A stretch of 64,000 bases of DNA from Alphaproteobacteria bacterium (lineage in GTDB: Bacteria; Pseudomonadota; Alphaproteobacteria; UBA7887): NCBI GenBank assembly GCA_030739735.1, contig JASLYQ010000004.1:62001-126000 (forward strand), read 5' to 3'. The notes beneath the pieces are model-generated. The model made no database searches. It saw nothing but the letters and a program-made list of their open reading frames with translations, and was not told where the DNA came from. The position numbers were made by a program, and so were the translations under genes. Numbering within the stretch: position 1 is the first letter of the stretch; every line of letters starts with the position of its first letter. This document shows positions 38,097 to 58,498 of the stretch, piece by piece.

Positions 38097-38711
38097 TCAT
38101 GGATTTTCTACTGATCGATGGTGTGCTAACAGTCGCACAATGCGTTCCACTGACTTCGGGGATGACCAGGCATAGGCGCCGACCAGACGACCTACCTCCA
38201 CACCGTTCGGATCTATCAACACACTAGTTGGCAACAAAGTTTGCCCCAACGCGCGGCCAAGTTCCTGTTCATGATCAATGTAGATTTTCAGCGCACCGAT
38301 GTTGCGTGCGGCGTAAAAATCCGCAATTGCCTGGGCCGATCCGGACTCCTGTGAAATTGCCAGAACCGCCAGACGATCAACTCCTATCATCGATTGTAGG
38401 CGGTCCAATTCCGGCATTTCGACAATGCAGGCGGCACACCAGGTCGCCCACAAGTTGACAAGGACCACGCGGCCACGAAACTCAGAAATTCGGCGCTGCG
38501 CGCCGGCAGAATCGTAGAATAGTGTATCCGGTGCCACCACCGGTGGGGTGGTGACGATGAATGAACCCCATCCACTACTAGAAAGTTTTTCCGCTTCGCC
38601 TACCTGTGGCGCCACCAATATCAGAAAGGAACAAATAATGGCCAAGCGAAGCAAGCGGCCTGGTTCGAAGGTCGCTTGCCGTGCCCCGTCAGATGGTTTC
38701 AAGGTTCGCAC
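38097..38711 (-). CDS. TlpA-like periplasmic thiol-disulfide protein
   Basis: 204 residues. A hydrophobic N-terminal segment (RLAIICSFLILVAPQVG, about residues 22-38) acts as signal or anchor. A thioredoxin-like domain follows with the redox pair Cys92-x-x-Cys95 in NLWATWCAACIVEMPEL and a cis-Pro loop TLLPTSVLIDPNG. Such proteins reduce periplasmic disulfides, often for cytochrome c maturation. The chosen GTG start at 38711 is five bases past the cytochrome P460-like stop, avoiding a long overlap that the larger open frame would need. The two genes form an operon, so the neighbour's many cysteines are a candidate substrate. Confidence 0.78.
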   Translation of the reverse strand: MRTLKPSDGARQATFEPGRLLRLAIICSFLILVAPQVGEAEKLSSSGWGSFIVTTPPVVAPDTLFYDSAGAQRRISEFRGRVVLVNLWATWCAACIVEMPELDRLQSMIGVDRLAVLAISQESGSAQAIADFYAARNIGALKIYIDHEQELGRALGQTLLPTSVLIDPNGVEVGRLVGAYAWSSPKSVERIVRLLAHHRSVENP

Positions 38712-38715
38712 TTTC

Positions 38716-39495
38716 TCACCGATATTCCTCAGGCAAGAAATACAGGTGGTCCTGTTTGTCACCGACGGCGCCGTGGCAATCGGCGCAGAACTGCATCTTG
38801 GCTGAACCAGGACCGTCCGTCGTACCAAAGATTGAGCCGTCGGGCATGATCATGGTGTAGCGCCAGTCTCCGGTGGCTAGATTAAAACCAGTAACCATTT
38901 TCTCCATTATAAATAATGGCCCAGACTGCAAGTCAGAACCGGTCCCGGCGGAGCATGGATTAGTGGCACACGGATTAGCTACGCATGGATTTTCCGTCGC
39001 GCACGGGTTCGTCGGCACCACCCTAAAACTGTCCTTGGCCAGCACGGAGCCTTGCGGCATGACACCTGCCTCCTCGAATCCGGCATAGGCGGAGGCCGCA
39101 GTGTTGGCATAATTGTTTACGTAGCGCCTGCCATGGGTCTCAGATATATAGGGAGCCATGTTATATCGCTGCCAATTGAAGTAAACTGCGGCGACGGGAT
39201 CGCCGGATTTGACGTAGCCGGCATGCAACTGCTTGGCGATGCGATCGTAGGTGTCGGCCGCCGCGGTGTTGGAGAGCACGACTGCAGGTTGCGCCGCACA
39301 CGGGTTGGCAGCCCCACACGGATTTGCCGTACACGGGTTCGCCGCCCCACACGGATTTGCCGCACACGGATTTGCCGCACACGGGTTCGTAGCCAAGGCG
39401 GGAGACTCTTCAAAGCTAGCGGTTCCGAGAACGATTGCCGCGAAGACCATACATGCGGCAATTCGTCTTGCAGGCGATATCTTGTTCGACTCCAT
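38716..39495 (-). CDS. Cytochrome P460-like secreted heme protein with Asn-Pro-Cys repeats
   Basis: 259 residues. The signal peptide ends at about Ala35. Six NPC triplets follow (37-66, spaced 5-6 residues). A P460-type domain then reads THGRRYVNNYAN, AGVMPQGSVLAKDSF, GPLFIMEKM and GDWRYTMIMPDG, and ends with a heme site CADCH (237-241) and DHLYFLPEEYR. A second array of four NPC triplets (163-181) is inserted inside the domain. P460 proteins oxidise hydroxylamine and carry a lysine-crosslinked heme; Lys154 is a possible crosslink residue but this is inference. It is co-transcribed with the TlpA-like gene and divergent from the pentaheme gene. Confidence 0.78.
   Translation of the reverse strand: MESNKISPARRIAACMVFAAIVLGTASFEESPALATNPCAANPCAANPCGAANPCTANPCGAANPCAAQPAVVLSNTAAADTYDRIAKQLHAGYVKSGDPVAAVYFNWQRYNMAPYISETHGRRYVNNYANTAASAYAGFEEAGVMPQGSVLAKDSFRVVPTNPCATENPCVANPCATNPCSAGTGSDLQSGPLFIMEKMVTGFNLATGDWRYTMIMPDGSIFGTTDGPGSAKMQFCADCHGAVGDKQDHLYFLPEEYR
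38950..39012 (-). repeat. Internal Asn-Pro-Cys repeat array (four copies)
   Basis: Codes for residues 162-182 of the same protein: NPCATE, NPCVA, NPCAT, NPCSAG. It interrupts the P460 domain between the AKDSF strand and the GPLFIMEK strand, where relatives I can recall have a short glycine loop. It shares DNA similarity with the N-terminal array. Confidence 0.88.
39292..39390 (-). repeat. N-terminal Asn-Pro-Cys repeat array (six copies)
   Basis: Codes for residues 36-68 of the P460-like protein: units of NPCAA, NPCGAA and NPCTA. At DNA level the units are near-identical 15-18 base direct repeats, with variants of CACACGGATTTGCCG and CACGGGTTCGCCGCC on the forward strand. Such an array can change copy number by slippage. 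Confidence 0.9.
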
Positions 39496-39959
39496 TTGTA
39501 CTTGCCCTCCCTAGGGTTTTTGAGCGCTTTGACTGTGAAAGCAGAGCCATTGAAGTTTTGTGGCACGTGACCCGCATTTCACCCGTCATCACAGTATCCC
39601 ACTGTCCGTTTGAGATGTGATTCGCACTTGGTCTACGGTGTGATTCAAGTTGGCTATATGGATGCTAGCAACGCTCCGCTGCGCTAGATGCTAGAGCGGA
39701 ACTTCGGCTGAATGAGGCGATGGTGGCGGCCCCTGCGCTATTACGAGCAACGACGCGATGTTTCCGAGGCTATGATCCATGTTGCCATGGGAAGCCTTCT
39801 CCTTTGTAGGGCCGACCATTGATCCCCTTTTCAAACAGACTTTTACTCTGTGCTCAAGTTTCTTAGTAGTCATCCCATTTCGCAAAGATGTGAGTTTTCC
39901 ATATGCTAATTAGAAATGTGAGAAAATTTCTAAACTACACGGCTGAGATTCTTGTTACT
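39496..39959. other. Divergent intergenic region of the redox island
   Basis: No convincing gene. The 39590-39660 part has two similar words (TGTGATTCGCACTT and TGTGATTCAAGTT), resembling the ends of some insertion sequences, but no transposase is visible. From about 39890 the sequence becomes AT-rich and leads into the promoter of the pentaheme gene. Short open frames in both directions show no protein-like pattern. Confidence 0.4.
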
Positions 39960-39989
39960 TTGACCTTTGTTTCTTATGATTATTATAAT
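39960..39989 (+). promoter_or_regulatory. Sigma-70-type promoter for the pentaheme cytochrome gene
   Basis: TTGACC (39960-39965) and a consensus TATAAT (39984-39989) are separated by 18 bases in an AT-rich island, about 70 bases before the start codon. It is the best-looking promoter in the window. The motif match is direct; its use is inferred. Confidence 0.6.
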
Positions 39990-40056
39990 TTTAATTTATC
40001 CGTATTTTCCTTATGAACCATGATGCGAACGGTCCGTGTACGGGAAGGAAATCGTG

Positions 40057-41268
40057 ATGCGGCGTCGGCGATGGCCGTCTTCTGCACTCGCGGCAGTGAT
40101 GCTCGTCCTCACATTACTAGGCCTAGCCGGCCAAGCGCAAAATGCTCGAGGCGAGGATACGCCGGTCGCCAGCCTTCCTTCTGGATATTGGGATCGCCCG
40201 CTTGCCAAGCAGGGCGAGGCGCCGCAGGCGTGGATTGAGATCGAGCGCTCCCTTGCGCCGGGGGCCTGCGGTGAATGCCATATGCGCCAAGCTGACGAGT
40301 GGCGCACCTCGCTTCATGCTAAGGCATTTTCCCCCGGGCTGGTTGGCCAACTCCTCACCTTCGATGCCGCAGGTACGGCAAGATGCATGGACTGCCACGC
40401 GCCACTAGCTGAGCAGAAACAGGCCTTCGAGCAGGCCAGAGCCAAGGGCGTTGGCCACCTGACGGACGCCCAAGGACTGGCCGCCTCCGGCAACAGTTGC
40501 GCCGGCTGCCATGTGCGCCGACACCAGCGGTTTGGGCCGCCACAACGGGACACGGGGTTAACGGGACCGTCGAATGATGAAATGCCACACGGCGGTGTGA
40601 CACGAACCACTGATTTCGAAGAATCGTCTTTCTGTAGCACTTGCCATCAGTTCCCATTGTCCATGGCCGTCAACGGCAAACCGCTGGAAAATACTTTCGT
40701 CGAATGGCAGGCAAGCCCGCAAGCGGCCGCAGGCCAGACCTGCCAGACTTGCCACATGCCTAGCCGCCGTCACGAGTGGCGCGGCATTCACGATCCGGAA
40801 ATGGTGCGTGACGGTTTGACGGCAACCTTTGCCGCGGAGGTTGAAGCGGCGCGCTTTTCCATCGCCAATACCGGTGTCGGCCATGCCTTTCCCAGCTACG
40901 TGACGCCGAAGGTGATTTTGCAGGGCGTCGCGCTAGATGCGGCGGGACAGCCGGTTGGCAACACGGCAGCATCGTACGTCATTCAGAGAGTGGTGGCGTA
41001 TTCGGGTGGGCGGTGGATCGAGAGTTCTGACACCCGGTTGCTGCCCAATCAATCCGCGACCCTCTCCGTCCCGTGGAAGGGATACGACCGTGTGCGCTTC
41101 TGGCTGGAGGTCCATCCCGACGACTACTACGACCGGCGCATCTATGATTCTCTACTCGCCAGTTTCGATCAGGCCGGTCCGGCCACGACACTGATCGCCG
41201 AAGCAGATGCGTTAGCCGCCAAAAGCTCATTTCGGTTGTTTGAGATGGAGTTGACGCATCCGAGATAA
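40057..41268 (+). CDS. Secreted pentaheme cytochrome, c554 family-like
   Basis: 403 residues. The signal peptide (ALAAVMLVLTLLGLAGQA) is followed by five c-type heme sites: CGECH (71-75), CMDCH (110-114), CAGCH (148-152), CSTCH (193-197), CQTCH (229-233). The C-terminal 170 residues lack heme sites and look like a beta-rich domain (RFSIANTGVGHAFPSYVTP). The heme part resembles the cytochrome c554 group, electron acceptor of hydroxylamine oxidoreductase in nitrifiers, and related multiheme reductases. ATG 40057 has GGAAGGAA six bases upstream. It is divergent from the P460-like gene. Confidence 0.85.
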   Translation: MRRRRWPSSALAAVMLVLTLLGLAGQAQNARGEDTPVASLPSGYWDRPLAKQGEAPQAWIEIERSLAPGACGECHMRQADEWRTSLHAKAFSPGLVGQLLTFDAAGTARCMDCHAPLAEQKQAFEQARAKGVGHLTDAQGLAASGNSCAGCHVRRHQRFGPPQRDTGLTGPSNDEMPHGGVTRTTDFEESSFCSTCHQFPLSMAVNGKPLENTFVEWQASPQAAAGQTCQTCHMPSRRHEWRGIHDPEMVRDGLTATFAAEVEAARFSIANTGVGHAFPSYVTPKVILQGVALDAAGQPVGNTAASYVIQRVVAYSGGRWIESSDTRLLPNQSATLSVPWKGYDRVRFWLEVHPDDYYDRRIYDSLLASFDQAGPATTLIAEADALAAKSSFRLFEMELTHPR

Positions 41269-55359: not shown

Positions 55360-56487
55360 TCATCCGCCATAGCGGCGATAGATGAAGTCTGGTGACTCGC
55401 CACCAACGGCGGCAAGCGGTTCGTCAAGCACAGCGCGATCGGGAGACAATGCGCAGGTAGGGTCGGTGACGGCAGCGTTACCAGTCAGCATGTAGGCCTG
55501 ACAGCGGCAACCGCCCCAGTCGATCTCCTTGCGATCGCAGCTCTGGCAGGGCTCCGGCATCCAGGCGCTACCACGGAAATGCTCGAAGGCTTCCGAGTTC
55601 TCCCAGATCCAGCCGAGCGGCTTCTGATGCACGGAGTCGAACTCGAGATCGGGAAGAACTTCGGCGGCATGGCAGGGCAGCACCTTGCCCGAGGGTGAGA
55701 TATTGATGAACTGCCGCCCCCAGCCACCCATGCACGACTTCGGCCGCTGGGCGTAATAGTCCGGCACCACGAAGTCGAAAGCGAGCACACCCTTGAGGCG
55801 CTCGCGTGCTTCCCCGACAATCTCCACAGCCTTATCGAGCTGCTTTCGGGTCGGCAGGAAGGCGATGCGGTTACGGAAGGCCCAAGCATAGTACTGCACC
55901 TGCGCCACCTCGATGCGCTCGGCGTCGAGGTCGACCGCCATCTGGATCATCTCCTCCAGATGGTGCAGGTTATGCCGGTGCATCACCGCATTAACGGTGA
56001 GCGGCATCCCGGCTTCGCGCACCCAGCGCGCGACCTGCTGCTTCTTCTCATGGGCACCGTCGTAACCGGCCACCCAGTCGCCAACCTCAGACGTGGTATC
56101 CTGGAAGCTGATCTGCACATGATCGAGCCCAAGCTCGGCAAAGCACTGCACGCGCGCCTTATTGAGCAGCACGCCGGACGTGATCAGGTTGCTGTACAGT
56201 CCGAGCTTTGCGGCGTGCTCTATGAGTTCCTCGAGATCCTTGCGCACCGTCGGCTCACCGCCTGAGTAATGGACGTGCAGGACGCCCATGTCCACCGCCT
56301 CGTCCATCACCCGCTTCCACTCCTCGGTGGTTAGCTCTCCCGAGGCCCGCTCGAGATCGATCGGGTTAGTACAATAGGGGCATTGCAGCGGACAGCGATG
56401 GCTAAGCTCCATCAGAACCGCATAGGGCACTACCTTGTTCGGCGTGGCCTCTGTGGACACCGCCGTCTGTCCTGCCACTTCGCTCAT
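55360..56487 (-). CDS. pqqE: PqqE, radical SAM PQQ synthase
   Basis: 375 residues. The radical SAM cysteines are C32-x3-C36-x2-C39 (CPLQCPYC); the SPASM domain cysteines include CHAAEVL, CQSCDRKEIDWGGCRCQ and a late DPTCALSPDR. It crosslinks Glu and Tyr in PqqA, held by PqqD. It overlaps pqqD by four bases (ATGA). Confidence 0.95.
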   Translation of the reverse strand: MSEVAGQTAVSTEATPNKVVPYAVLMELSHRCPLQCPYCTNPIDLERASGELTTEEWKRVMDEAVDMGVLHVHYSGGEPTVRKDLEELIEHAAKLGLYSNLITSGVLLNKARVQCFAELGLDHVQISFQDTTSEVGDWVAGYDGAHEKKQQVARWVREAGMPLTVNAVMHRHNLHHLEEMIQMAVDLDAERIEVAQVQYYAWAFRNRIAFLPTRKQLDKAVEIVGEARERLKGVLAFDFVVPDYYAQRPKSCMGGWGRQFINISPSGKVLPCHAAEVLPDLEFDSVHQKPLGWIWENSEAFEHFRGSAWMPEPCQSCDRKEIDWGGCRCQAYMLTGNAAVTDPTCALSPDRAVLDEPLAAVGGESPDFIYRRYGG

Positions 56488-56771
56488 ATCACCACGAATC
56501 CCTTATCCGCCAGATCCTGCAGCATGGCCGTCGCATCTTCGGCGATGACCTCTCGCGGGGCATCGAACTTTTCCGTCAAGGCGTCGACAACCTGCGTCAG
56601 CGTGCGTACGCCGTCGCACAGAGAGACCACCTCGTGGGCAATCTCATCAAGCTCGAATACCCGCTCAGGCGCCAAGATGATCCACTTGTCGCGCGGCTTG
56701 TCGAAGCGCAGCTTGGCGTGTCGCGGCAGCTTCGGCACAGACCCCTCATCCAGGGTCAACCGCTCGCTCAT
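56484..56771 (-). CDS. pqqD: PqqD, peptide chaperone for PQQ synthesis
   Basis: 95 residues, the normal size. The winged-helix pattern LRFDKPRDKWIILAPERVFE and LDEIAHEVVSLCDGVRTL is visible. It delivers PqqA to PqqE. It starts three bases after the pqqC stop. Confidence 0.94.
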   Translation of the reverse strand: MSERLTLDEGSVPKLPRHAKLRFDKPRDKWIILAPERVFELDEIAHEVVSLCDGVRTLTQVVDALTEKFDAPREVIAEDATAMLQDLADKGFVVI

Positions 56772-56774
56772 GTC

Positions 56775-57575
56775 CTACCCGCTCGGTGCGGGCACGAAAG
56801 CACCCGGTGGGATCATCCCCGGCTCGACATAGGCTAGGTAGAGGGCATCGAGCTGGGCCCAGAGCACATCGGTCTTGAAGCGGACAGCGTTCAATACCGC
56901 CTCCTGCTGCTCGCGCGTTTTGGCATTGCGTATTACATAGTCTTGGCCGAATTCGGAGTCGCGCGGCGCCTCGCCGAGGCGCTTCTGGAAGTAGGCCAAC
57001 GCGTATTCGTCCGCCCAGTCGTAATGCTTCGACAACCCAGCAATACGCTCGCGGTGGATCGACGGCGCGAATAGCTCGGTTAGCGAGGAGGCCACGGCTT
57101 CGAGTTCGCTGCGCCTGCCGACATATTCCACATAGGCATCAACCGCAAAGCGCGTGCCCGGTAGGATGCCGACGGTTGAGAGCACATAGTCCTCGTCAAG
57201 CCCCAGGCGTTCGGTGAGCTGCAGGTAGCGGCGGATGCCGCCGGTCTCGACGTCAACGCCGTCGTGATCAAGCACACGCGAGCGCCAAGTGCGACGCAAC
57301 TCGGCGCTCGGCAAACGCGCCATCAGGGTCAAGTCCTTGAGCGGGATACAGGCCTGGTAATAGTAGCGGTTCAGCGCCCATGCTTGCACTTGTCCAAAAT
57401 CGAGCTCGCCACCGTGCAGCATTTTATGAAACGGATGCAGGTTGTGATAGCGCTCCCGCCCGATCTGTTTCATCGCCTCAGCAAAATCGTCCGAACTCAT
57501 CAGTTCATCGTGATCGACGTCCAGATTATACCAGTGCGTCGGCTTGACGTCGGCGACTATCGGGGCAGCAGTCAT
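56775..57575 (-). CDS. pqqC: PqqC, pyrroloquinoline quinone synthase
   Basis: 266 residues. It carries out the final cofactor-free oxidation and ring closure. It has YHNLHPFHKMLHGGELD, QVQAWALNRYYYQACIPLKD and RLGLDEDYVLS with conserved His/Tyr/Arg sites. ATG 57575 overlaps the pqqB stop as ATGA; the longer upstream frame is rejected. Confidence 0.95.
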   Translation of the reverse strand: MTAAPIVADVKPTHWYNLDVDHDELMSSDDFAEAMKQIGRERYHNLHPFHKMLHGGELDFGQVQAWALNRYYYQACIPLKDLTLMARLPSAELRRTWRSRVLDHDGVDVETGGIRRYLQLTERLGLDEDYVLSTVGILPGTRFAVDAYVEYVGRRSELEAVASSLTELFAPSIHRERIAGLSKHYDWADEYALAYFQKRLGEAPRDSEFGQDYVIRNAKTREQQEAVLNAVRFKTDVLWAQLDALYLAYVEPGMIPPGAFVPAPSG

Positions 57576-58498
57576 AGGGTAATCTCCATGCCGTCGTGGG
57601 ATACCTCCCAACCCGCCGCCAGAACCTCGGCCCGCTGCGGGCTGTCGTCGAGCAGAATGGGGTTGGTGGTATTGATGTGGATAAAAATCTTGCGCTTCAC
57701 GTCGAGGTCGGCAAAAGCGGCGATGGTACCTTGCGGCCCGGAGACGCTCATATGGCCCATGCGGTCACCGGTCTTGGCGCCGACACCATCGCGAATCATC
57801 TCATCGTCAACCCACAGGGTACCATCGAAAAGCACCAAGGGCGCGCCGCGCAGGCGTTCAGCAAGCTCAGGCGGCATGGAGGCGCAGCCCGGAACATAGA
57901 AGGCACGGGTCGCGCCCTCGGCATCGCGAATCTCCAGCGCGATGGTGTCCTCCGCCACCGAGCCAAAATTCGCTTGGCTCGCATCCTCGAGCCATAGCGC
58001 GATCTTGCCCGGCACCGAGAACGGCACCACAGTAACGCCAGACTCGGCACCACCCGGGCAGATCAGCGCGTTGGGCTGGTCCATGGTCAGCATCTCGCGC
58101 GCCACGAATTGCGGGTTGAGAATGTTAAAAATCTTATTCGCGGCCAGCACCCCGAGCACGCGCTGGGTGGCGTAGACACGCAGCGGGTGGGATTCGCGCA
58201 GCGTAATCAGGCCGGCTGTGTGATCAACATCGGCATTGGTCAACACCACACCCTGGATGGGGCTGTGGCGCAGACCGTCGCTCGGATGCATGACATCGTT
58301 GTGCAGAATCTGCGCCCGCAGATCCGGCGACGCATTGCAGAGAAACCAGCGCTTGCCGTCGGCGCTTACCGCGATCGAGGACTGGGTGCGCTGCTGCGCG
58401 GCCGCATCCCCTTCGCGGGCGCGTCGACTATTTGGGTGATTGCAGTTCCACTGTGGAAATCCTCCGCCGGCGGCGGAGCCGAGGACGCGTATTTGCAT
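57572..58498 (-). CDS. pqqB: PqqB, metallo-hydrolase-fold PQQ biosynthesis protein
   Basis: 308 residues. It has the opening RVLGSAAGGGFPQWNCNH and VVLTNADVDHTAGLITLRE with the metallo-beta-lactamase-like Asp/His residues. It is proposed to hydroxylate a processed PqqA intermediate. It is 75 bases downstream of pqqA. Confidence 0.95.
   Translation of the reverse strand: MQIRVLGSAAGGGFPQWNCNHPNSRRAREGDAAAQQRTQSSIAVSADGKRWFLCNASPDLRAQILHNDVMHPSDGLRHSPIQGVVLTNADVDHTAGLITLRESHPLRVYATQRVLGVLAANKIFNILNPQFVAREMLTMDQPNALICPGGAESGVTVVPFSVPGKIALWLEDASQANFGSVAEDTIALEIRDAEGATRAFYVPGCASMPPELAERLRGAPLVLFDGTLWVDDEMIRDGVGAKTGDRMGHMSVSGPQGTIAAFADLDVKRKIFIHINTTNPILLDDSPQRAEVLAAGWEVSHDGMEITL

Follow-up and report, generated by a model that had tools for sequence, protein, structure and literature searches.

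A cytochrome P460-like protein with Asn-Pro-Cys repeats and its redox neighbours in an alphaproteobacterial genome

A 64,000-nucleotide stretch of an alphaproteobacterial genome (assembly GCA_030739735.1, contig JASLYQ010000004.1, positions 62,001 to 126,000; hereafter the window) carries, at positions 38716–39495, a gene whose product belongs to the cytochrome P460/c'-β superfamily and contains arrays of the triplet Asn-Pro-Cys (NPC). It lies between a TlpA/ResA-like thioredoxin gene and a divergent gene for a pentahaem c-type cytochrome. The NPC-bearing subfamily to which it belongs, with its recurrent gene neighbours, is apparently undescribed, its haem domain being of a known superfamily. 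As an explanation of the whole we propose a P460-type periplasmic haem enzyme with a likely electron partner, an NPC accessory module and a thioredoxin, a proposal that we regard as evenly poised between right and wrong. The host genome comprises 2.64 Mb in 69 contigs and is 98.8% complete. The three genes and their motifs had been listed in a first-pass annotation of the window, and a direct reading of the sequence finds all of them in place (Table 1).

Fold and active site of the P460-like protein

The first-pass annotation had assigned the 38716–39495 product a P460 fold, and this is borne out both by profile matches to known structures and by comparison of the predicted structure. A phmmer search of the PDB with the single window sequence returned spurious matches only. 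A profile built from 33 relatives placed the c'-β protein of Nitrosomonas europaea (NeCP-β) first (E 1.6e-6), followed by the P460 proteins of N. europaea (NeP460, 0.003–0.0065) and Methylococcus capsulatus (McP460, 0.01) and the c'-β protein of Thermus thermophilus (TtCP-β, 0.012), with all else behind. The AlphaFold model has a core of 151 residues with a predicted local distance difference test score (pLDDT) of at least 90, the NPC parts not being confident. Structure prediction had been named as a check on the fold, and Foldseek and VIA-align 2 put P460 and c'-β structures on top (Z 8.1–12.8), against 4.9 for the next unrelated fold. The CADCH motif is the sole c-haem site of the protein and is C-terminal; CxxCH is invariant in the 33-row alignment.

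With the cytochromes P460 of N. europaea (2je2/2je3/8gar) and M. capsulatus (6hiu/9hrk) the window protein shares the fold, the single C-terminal CxxCH, a Lys at the crosslink position and a carboxylate at the distal position. Structure-aligned identity is just 16%–17%, and the window protein differs in its gene neighbourhood and in carrying NPC repeats, which lie at the N-terminus and in what is probably the β3–β4 loop. The cytochromes c'-β of N. europaea (7s5o), M. capsulatus (6hih) and T. thermophilus (7ead) share the fold and provide both the top profile score (7s5o) and the top Foldseek score (7ead), but they have Met or Phe at the position of Lys154 and no catalytic carboxylate (PMC11928373).

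These two positions matter because hydroxylamine oxidation requires both a Lys–haem crosslink and a distal carboxylate (Lys70 and Glu96 in NeP460, Lys78 and Asp102 in McP460), whereas c'-β proteins have Ala or Gly at the carboxylate site (PMC11928373). In the HMM alignments, from which residue numbers were counted by hand, the Lys154 column holds Lys70 of NeP460, Lys78 of McP460, Met79 of NeCP-β and Phe61 of TtCP-β, equivalences that agree with Table 2 of PMC11928373. The Glu198 column holds Glu96 of NeP460, Asp102 of McP460 and Gly82 of TtCP-β, and is less certain because the NeCP-β alignment is shifted there. Conservation was counted over 110 haem-bearing relatives, the window copy included, of which 86 bear NPC repeats and 24 do not. 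Lys occupies the Lys154 site in all 86 of the former and in 18 of the latter, the others having Met (four relatives from the host family) or Arg (two). The Glu198 site is Glu in 22 of the 24 NPC-bearing relatives that came from unbiased searches; 62 further NPC-bearing relatives had been retrieved by a pattern containing this Glu and were excluded as evidence for it. By alignment, then, Lys154 sits at the crosslink position and Glu198 at that of the catalytic carboxylate, which supports a crosslink-type Lys, a feature that the first-pass annotation had suggested looking for, together with a distal carboxylate.

An alternative is that the protein is c'-β-like, or a "halfway house," that binds gas (NO or CO) and captures or buffers NO without oxidizing hydroxylamine. 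Its best sequence match is indeed the c'-β protein 7s5o, and its best structural match is TtCP-β (Z 12.8), tied with McP460 (12.6); the Met found at the Lys site in family relatives without NPC repeats points the same way, as does NsP460, which is Lys-crosslinked yet inactive (PMC11928373). Characterized c'-β proteins, however, do not have the Lys that every NPC-bearing relative keeps, Glu198 is conserved here and absent from NsP460, and a separate NeCP-β-like protein is already present in the genome. We consider a purely gas-binding role unlikely.

The NPC arrays

The feature that sets the subfamily apart is its cysteine arrays, which are located after the signal peptide and are encoded in tandem-repeat DNA. 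Array cysteines are mostly preceded by Asn-Pro, and the usual spacing between neighbouring ones is 3, 6 or 5 residues. A second array occupies the loop that separates the Lys154 strand from the Glu198 strand in the window protein and in the relatives L032, L033, L067, L084 and L089; six relatives without NPC repeats have one or two Cys in that loop. Going by strand order, we read it as the probable β3–β4 loop, which in known P460 proteins reaches the haem of the second monomer (PMC11928373). When NPC presence was mapped as a label on the tree, it required 7 changes, against 22 in shuffles, and is therefore a clustered trait with a small number of gains or losses. We found no description in the open-access literature of NPC repeats with P460, of the motif NPCAAKNPC or of a cysteine-rich alphaproteobacterial P460.

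Small secreted NPC-only proteins are encoded next to the NPC-P460 genes of loci L072, L075 and L169. Three small secreted products made almost purely of NPC or SPC repeats (L072:4056-4340, L169:8234-8578 and L172:7068-7409) lie beside NPC-P460 or DUF6969 genes, and two of these small repeat proteins that were tested against Pfam matched no family above its cut-off.

Such proteins, together with the relative L123, in which NPC triplets number as many as 44 and cysteines 71, would fit a view in which periplasmic Cu/Zn binding or thiol buffering by the arrays is the main function and the P460 domain serves as a sensor or redox control. The haem domain is, however, much better conserved than the arrays, relatives without arrays retain the haem site, and no recurrent metal-transport or metallophore neighbour was noticed, no systematic search for one having been made. 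We hold this view to be improbable, and favour an enzymatic haem domain to which the arrays are accessory.

Distribution, gene neighbours and the pentahaem cytochrome

The distribution of the P460-like gene was assessed in a class-level set of 385 genomes and a family set of nine; the host order is represented by these nine genomes, all of one family. Relatives occur in seven of the nine family genomes and 60 of the 385 class genomes, and a scan of GTDB genomes gave 298 confirmed stretches, so the gene is no chance occurrence. Eighty of the stretches were kept as loci for counting neighbours within 6 kb of the P460-like gene; their titles are Alphaproteobacteria or unresolved Proteobacteria, and since many contigs are short the counts are lower bounds. 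The neighbours are DUF6969 (26 loci), a small cytochrome c (20), an FGE-sulfatase-like protein (18), a second P460-like gene (11), the pentahaem gene (one) and a TlpA-like gene (none).

DUF6969 (PF22308) is found in 45 of the 60 P460-bearing class genomes and in 45 of the 325 others, an odds ratio of 18.7 that is uncorrected for relatedness. Together with the FGE-sulfatase-like protein (PF03781) and the small cytochrome c, it recurs in L072, L073, L075, L077, L081, L082 and other NPC-P460 loci; no paper on DUF6969 was found in the open-access literature. We considered whether the FGE-like neighbour might be a canonical formylglycine-generating enzyme (FGE) acting on NPC cysteines and rejected the idea: true FGEs carry a Cys pair, and the L072 copy has GSWDDKGCGVCRP where that pair is expected. 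P460-like proteins without CxxCH, possibly haem-free paralogues, were also seen (L035:2338-3474, L066:4763-5884 and L064:14283-15356; two are devoid of Cys), in or beside neighbourhoods of NPC-P460 genes and of genes for the synthesis of pyrroloquinoline quinone (PQQ). L064, L066 and L067 also seem to have PQQ genes close to their P460-like genes, and in the window pqqE-, pqqC- and pqqB-like genes stand at 55360–58498, ~15 kb from the P460-like gene.

Table 1. Features of the P460-like gene and its immediate neighbours in the window
Feature	Position	Strand	Remarks
TlpA/ResA-like thioredoxin	38097..38711	-	WCAAC; hydrophobic N-terminus (anchor or signal); GTG at 38711 as probable start, from sequence
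NPC-repeat cytochrome P460-like protein	38716..39495	-	259 amino acids; one CxxCH; ten NPC triplets
CADCH haem-binding motif	38773..38787	-	Residues 237–241
Glu198 codon	38902..38904	-	Aligned with catalytic distal carboxylate Glu96 (NeP460) / Asp102 (McP460)
Second NPC array	38950..39009	-	Residues 163–182; four Cys; loop between Lys154 strand and Glu198 strand
Lys154 codon	39034..39036	-	Aligned with haem-crosslinking Lys70 (NeP460) / Lys78 (McP460)
N-terminal NPC array	39295..39387	-	Residues 37–67; six Cys; tandem-repeat DNA; low-confidence, probably disordered in model
Putative signal peptide of P460-like protein	39391..39495	-	Residues 1–35; read from sequence by eye
Sigma-70-type promoter-like site	39960..39989	+	TTGACC-18-TATAAT; divergent intergenic region 39496–40056, 45.6% GC
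Pentahaem c-type cytochrome	40057..41268	+	403 amino acids; five CxxCH; C-terminal β-sandwich domain

The pentahaem gene is rare: there are two further intact orthologues among the 385 class genomes. Intact orthologues (G024, G349 and L089) are 56%–61% identical to the window protein and have all five haem motifs. Matches in the family proved to be different, larger five-CxxCH cytochromes and were not accepted as orthologues. Large multihaem cytochromes of family genomes, with five CxxCH and ~600–690 residues, occur in cytochrome/flavoprotein gene rows at L029, L030, L031 and L187.

The first-pass annotation had linked the P460-like and pentahaem genes, and we find this linkage to be real but not general. 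At L089 the two form a divergent pair arranged as in the window. G318 (L169, 7595-7903, G318:C2) has a pentahaem remnant from which the haem part is gone and the C-terminal domain alone survives; its neighbours are a DUF6969 gene, an NPC-only gene and, where the contig stops, the apparent start of an NPC-P460 gene. Against this, the pentahaem gene is unlinked from the P460 gene in G024, and G349 has it with no P460 match. In the window the promoter-like site between the two genes has 11 of 12 consensus matches and is the best of five promoter-like matches, against 1.7 expected; an Rfam scan of the window gave no match.

The same annotation had likened the pentahaem protein to cytochrome c554, a likeness that does not hold. 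Cytochrome c554 has four haem motifs and lacks an additional domain; the window protein has five CxxCH and an added C-terminal β domain, and its closest solved relatives are the penta-haem cytochrome c552 of Thermochromatium tepidum (5ze8) and MccSep (9wt8), at E 1.6e-7 and 3.9e-5 in a profile search. The multihaem sequence pattern resembles that of both, and the C-terminal domain also resembles that of 5ze8 (Z 10.5 over 141 residues), the identity to 5ze8 being ~18%–21%. The protein nevertheless scores 27.2 against PF13435, whose cut-off is 20.8.

On the other side of the P460-like gene, the probable GTG start of the thioredoxin-like gene is four bases past the P460 stop. Its product matches Redoxin (9e-13) and AhpC-TSA (3e-11) in Pfam, and its top NCBIfam match is TlpA at 109.7 bits, short of the TlpA equivalog cut-off of 230. 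Like the TlpA/ResA thiol-disulfide oxidoreductases, it combines a WCxxC-bearing thioredoxin domain with a hydrophobic N-terminus; unlike them it falls under every equivalog cut-off, has WCAAC (residues 90–94) and neighbours a P460 gene in this window only. We take it to be TlpA/ResA-like and, from its hydrophobic N-terminus, probably periplasmic. At one other NPC-P460 locus (L078/L105) a thioredoxin and a DsbD-like gene lie downstream of the P460 gene.

The neighbouring redox genes may be unrelated, with no joint function of the cluster, which is possible if somewhat doubtful. The TlpA-like gene, which stands beside the P460 gene in none of the 80 loci, and the rare pentahaem gene, unlinked in G024, argue for such independence. 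The divergent pair kept in L089 and the remnant in L169 argue the other way, and the P460 proteins of the genomes with both genes (the window, G024 and L089) are close in the tree, in a region that is weakly resolved.

Hydroxylamine context and proposed role

A role in the chemistry of hydroxylamine, which the first-pass annotation had raised, gains support from the rest of the genome. It encodes a Nitrosomonas-type hydroxylamine oxidoreductase (HAO) with eight CxxCH (G000:C28; L186 8863-10743) that scores 632–639 bits against N. europaea HAO. The crosslinking residue of HAO is Tyr467, and its equivalent is kept (GGWAYSEGW here, GGWTYTEGW in N. europaea, counted in the 4fas alignment). The HAO gene adjoins a cytochrome b/b6 gene and a membrane-protein gene with one CxxCH, a row that may provide a direct HAO-to-quinone or bc-type link. 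The NeCP-β-like protein of the same genome (L028:5273-5797; G000:C2:118362-118736) matches 7s5o at 5e-24 and has Met at the crosslink Lys position. The presence of these two proteins makes it plausible that the P460-like protein handles hydroxylamine or NO.

In the mechanism that we infer, the c-haem of the P460-like protein would most likely be crosslinked to Lys154 while Glu198 acts as the carboxylate that relays protons, and the protein would oxidize hydroxylamine or turn over NO-related species and so help to detoxify reactive nitrogen. Its likely, non-obligate electron partner or acceptor would be the divergent pentahaem cytochrome, the NPC cysteines would probably form a thiol or metal-binding accessory module, and the TlpA-like thioredoxin would maintain the many cysteines, those of haem attachment included, in the reduced state.

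Several observations weigh against this mechanism. The window protein alone reaches 22.5 bits against Pfam PF16694, under the gathering cut-off of 27 that its relatives L067 (39.0), L072 (35.2) and L089 (31.1) exceed. In the Glu198 column NeCP-β places Asp103, not the structurally equivalent Ala109; Lys gives way to Met in the family relatives mentioned above; and a Lys154–haem crosslink, which we infer, is invisible in a haem-free model. A Lys and a carboxylate do not in themselves ensure activity, as the Glu96Asp change abolishes that of NeP460 (PMC11928373). The pentahaem protein is modelled badly around its haems (overall pLDDT 50.5), and the notion of a conserved operon of three genes, which the first-pass annotation had offered for checking, was abandoned, given that the thioredoxin gene accompanies the P460 gene in the window alone.

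A bolder proposal would make the NPC arrays a new module in which thiol or metal-thiolate chemistry is linked with the P460 haem: loop cysteines, within reach of the haem of the partner subunit, would capture or pass on the NO, HNO or electrons that the haem produces, a thioredoxin/DsbD-type reductase would recycle them, and the DUF6969 and FGE-like neighbours would serve maturation. We think this has a small chance of being correct; if true, it would mean that many Alphaproteobacteria beyond the classical nitrifiers possess a thiol-linked hydroxylamine/NO pathway.

Work on cytochromes P460 has dealt mostly with ammonia and methane oxidizers, in which they are able to make NO and N2O. A widespread alphaproteobacterial subfamily with the crosslink Lys and the carboxylate would widen the range of possible hydroxylamine users. 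The arrays raise a testable question, namely what purpose up to 71 cysteines serve in a P460-type protein, and the HAO encoded in the same genome makes the hydroxylamine metabolism of this lineage testable as well.

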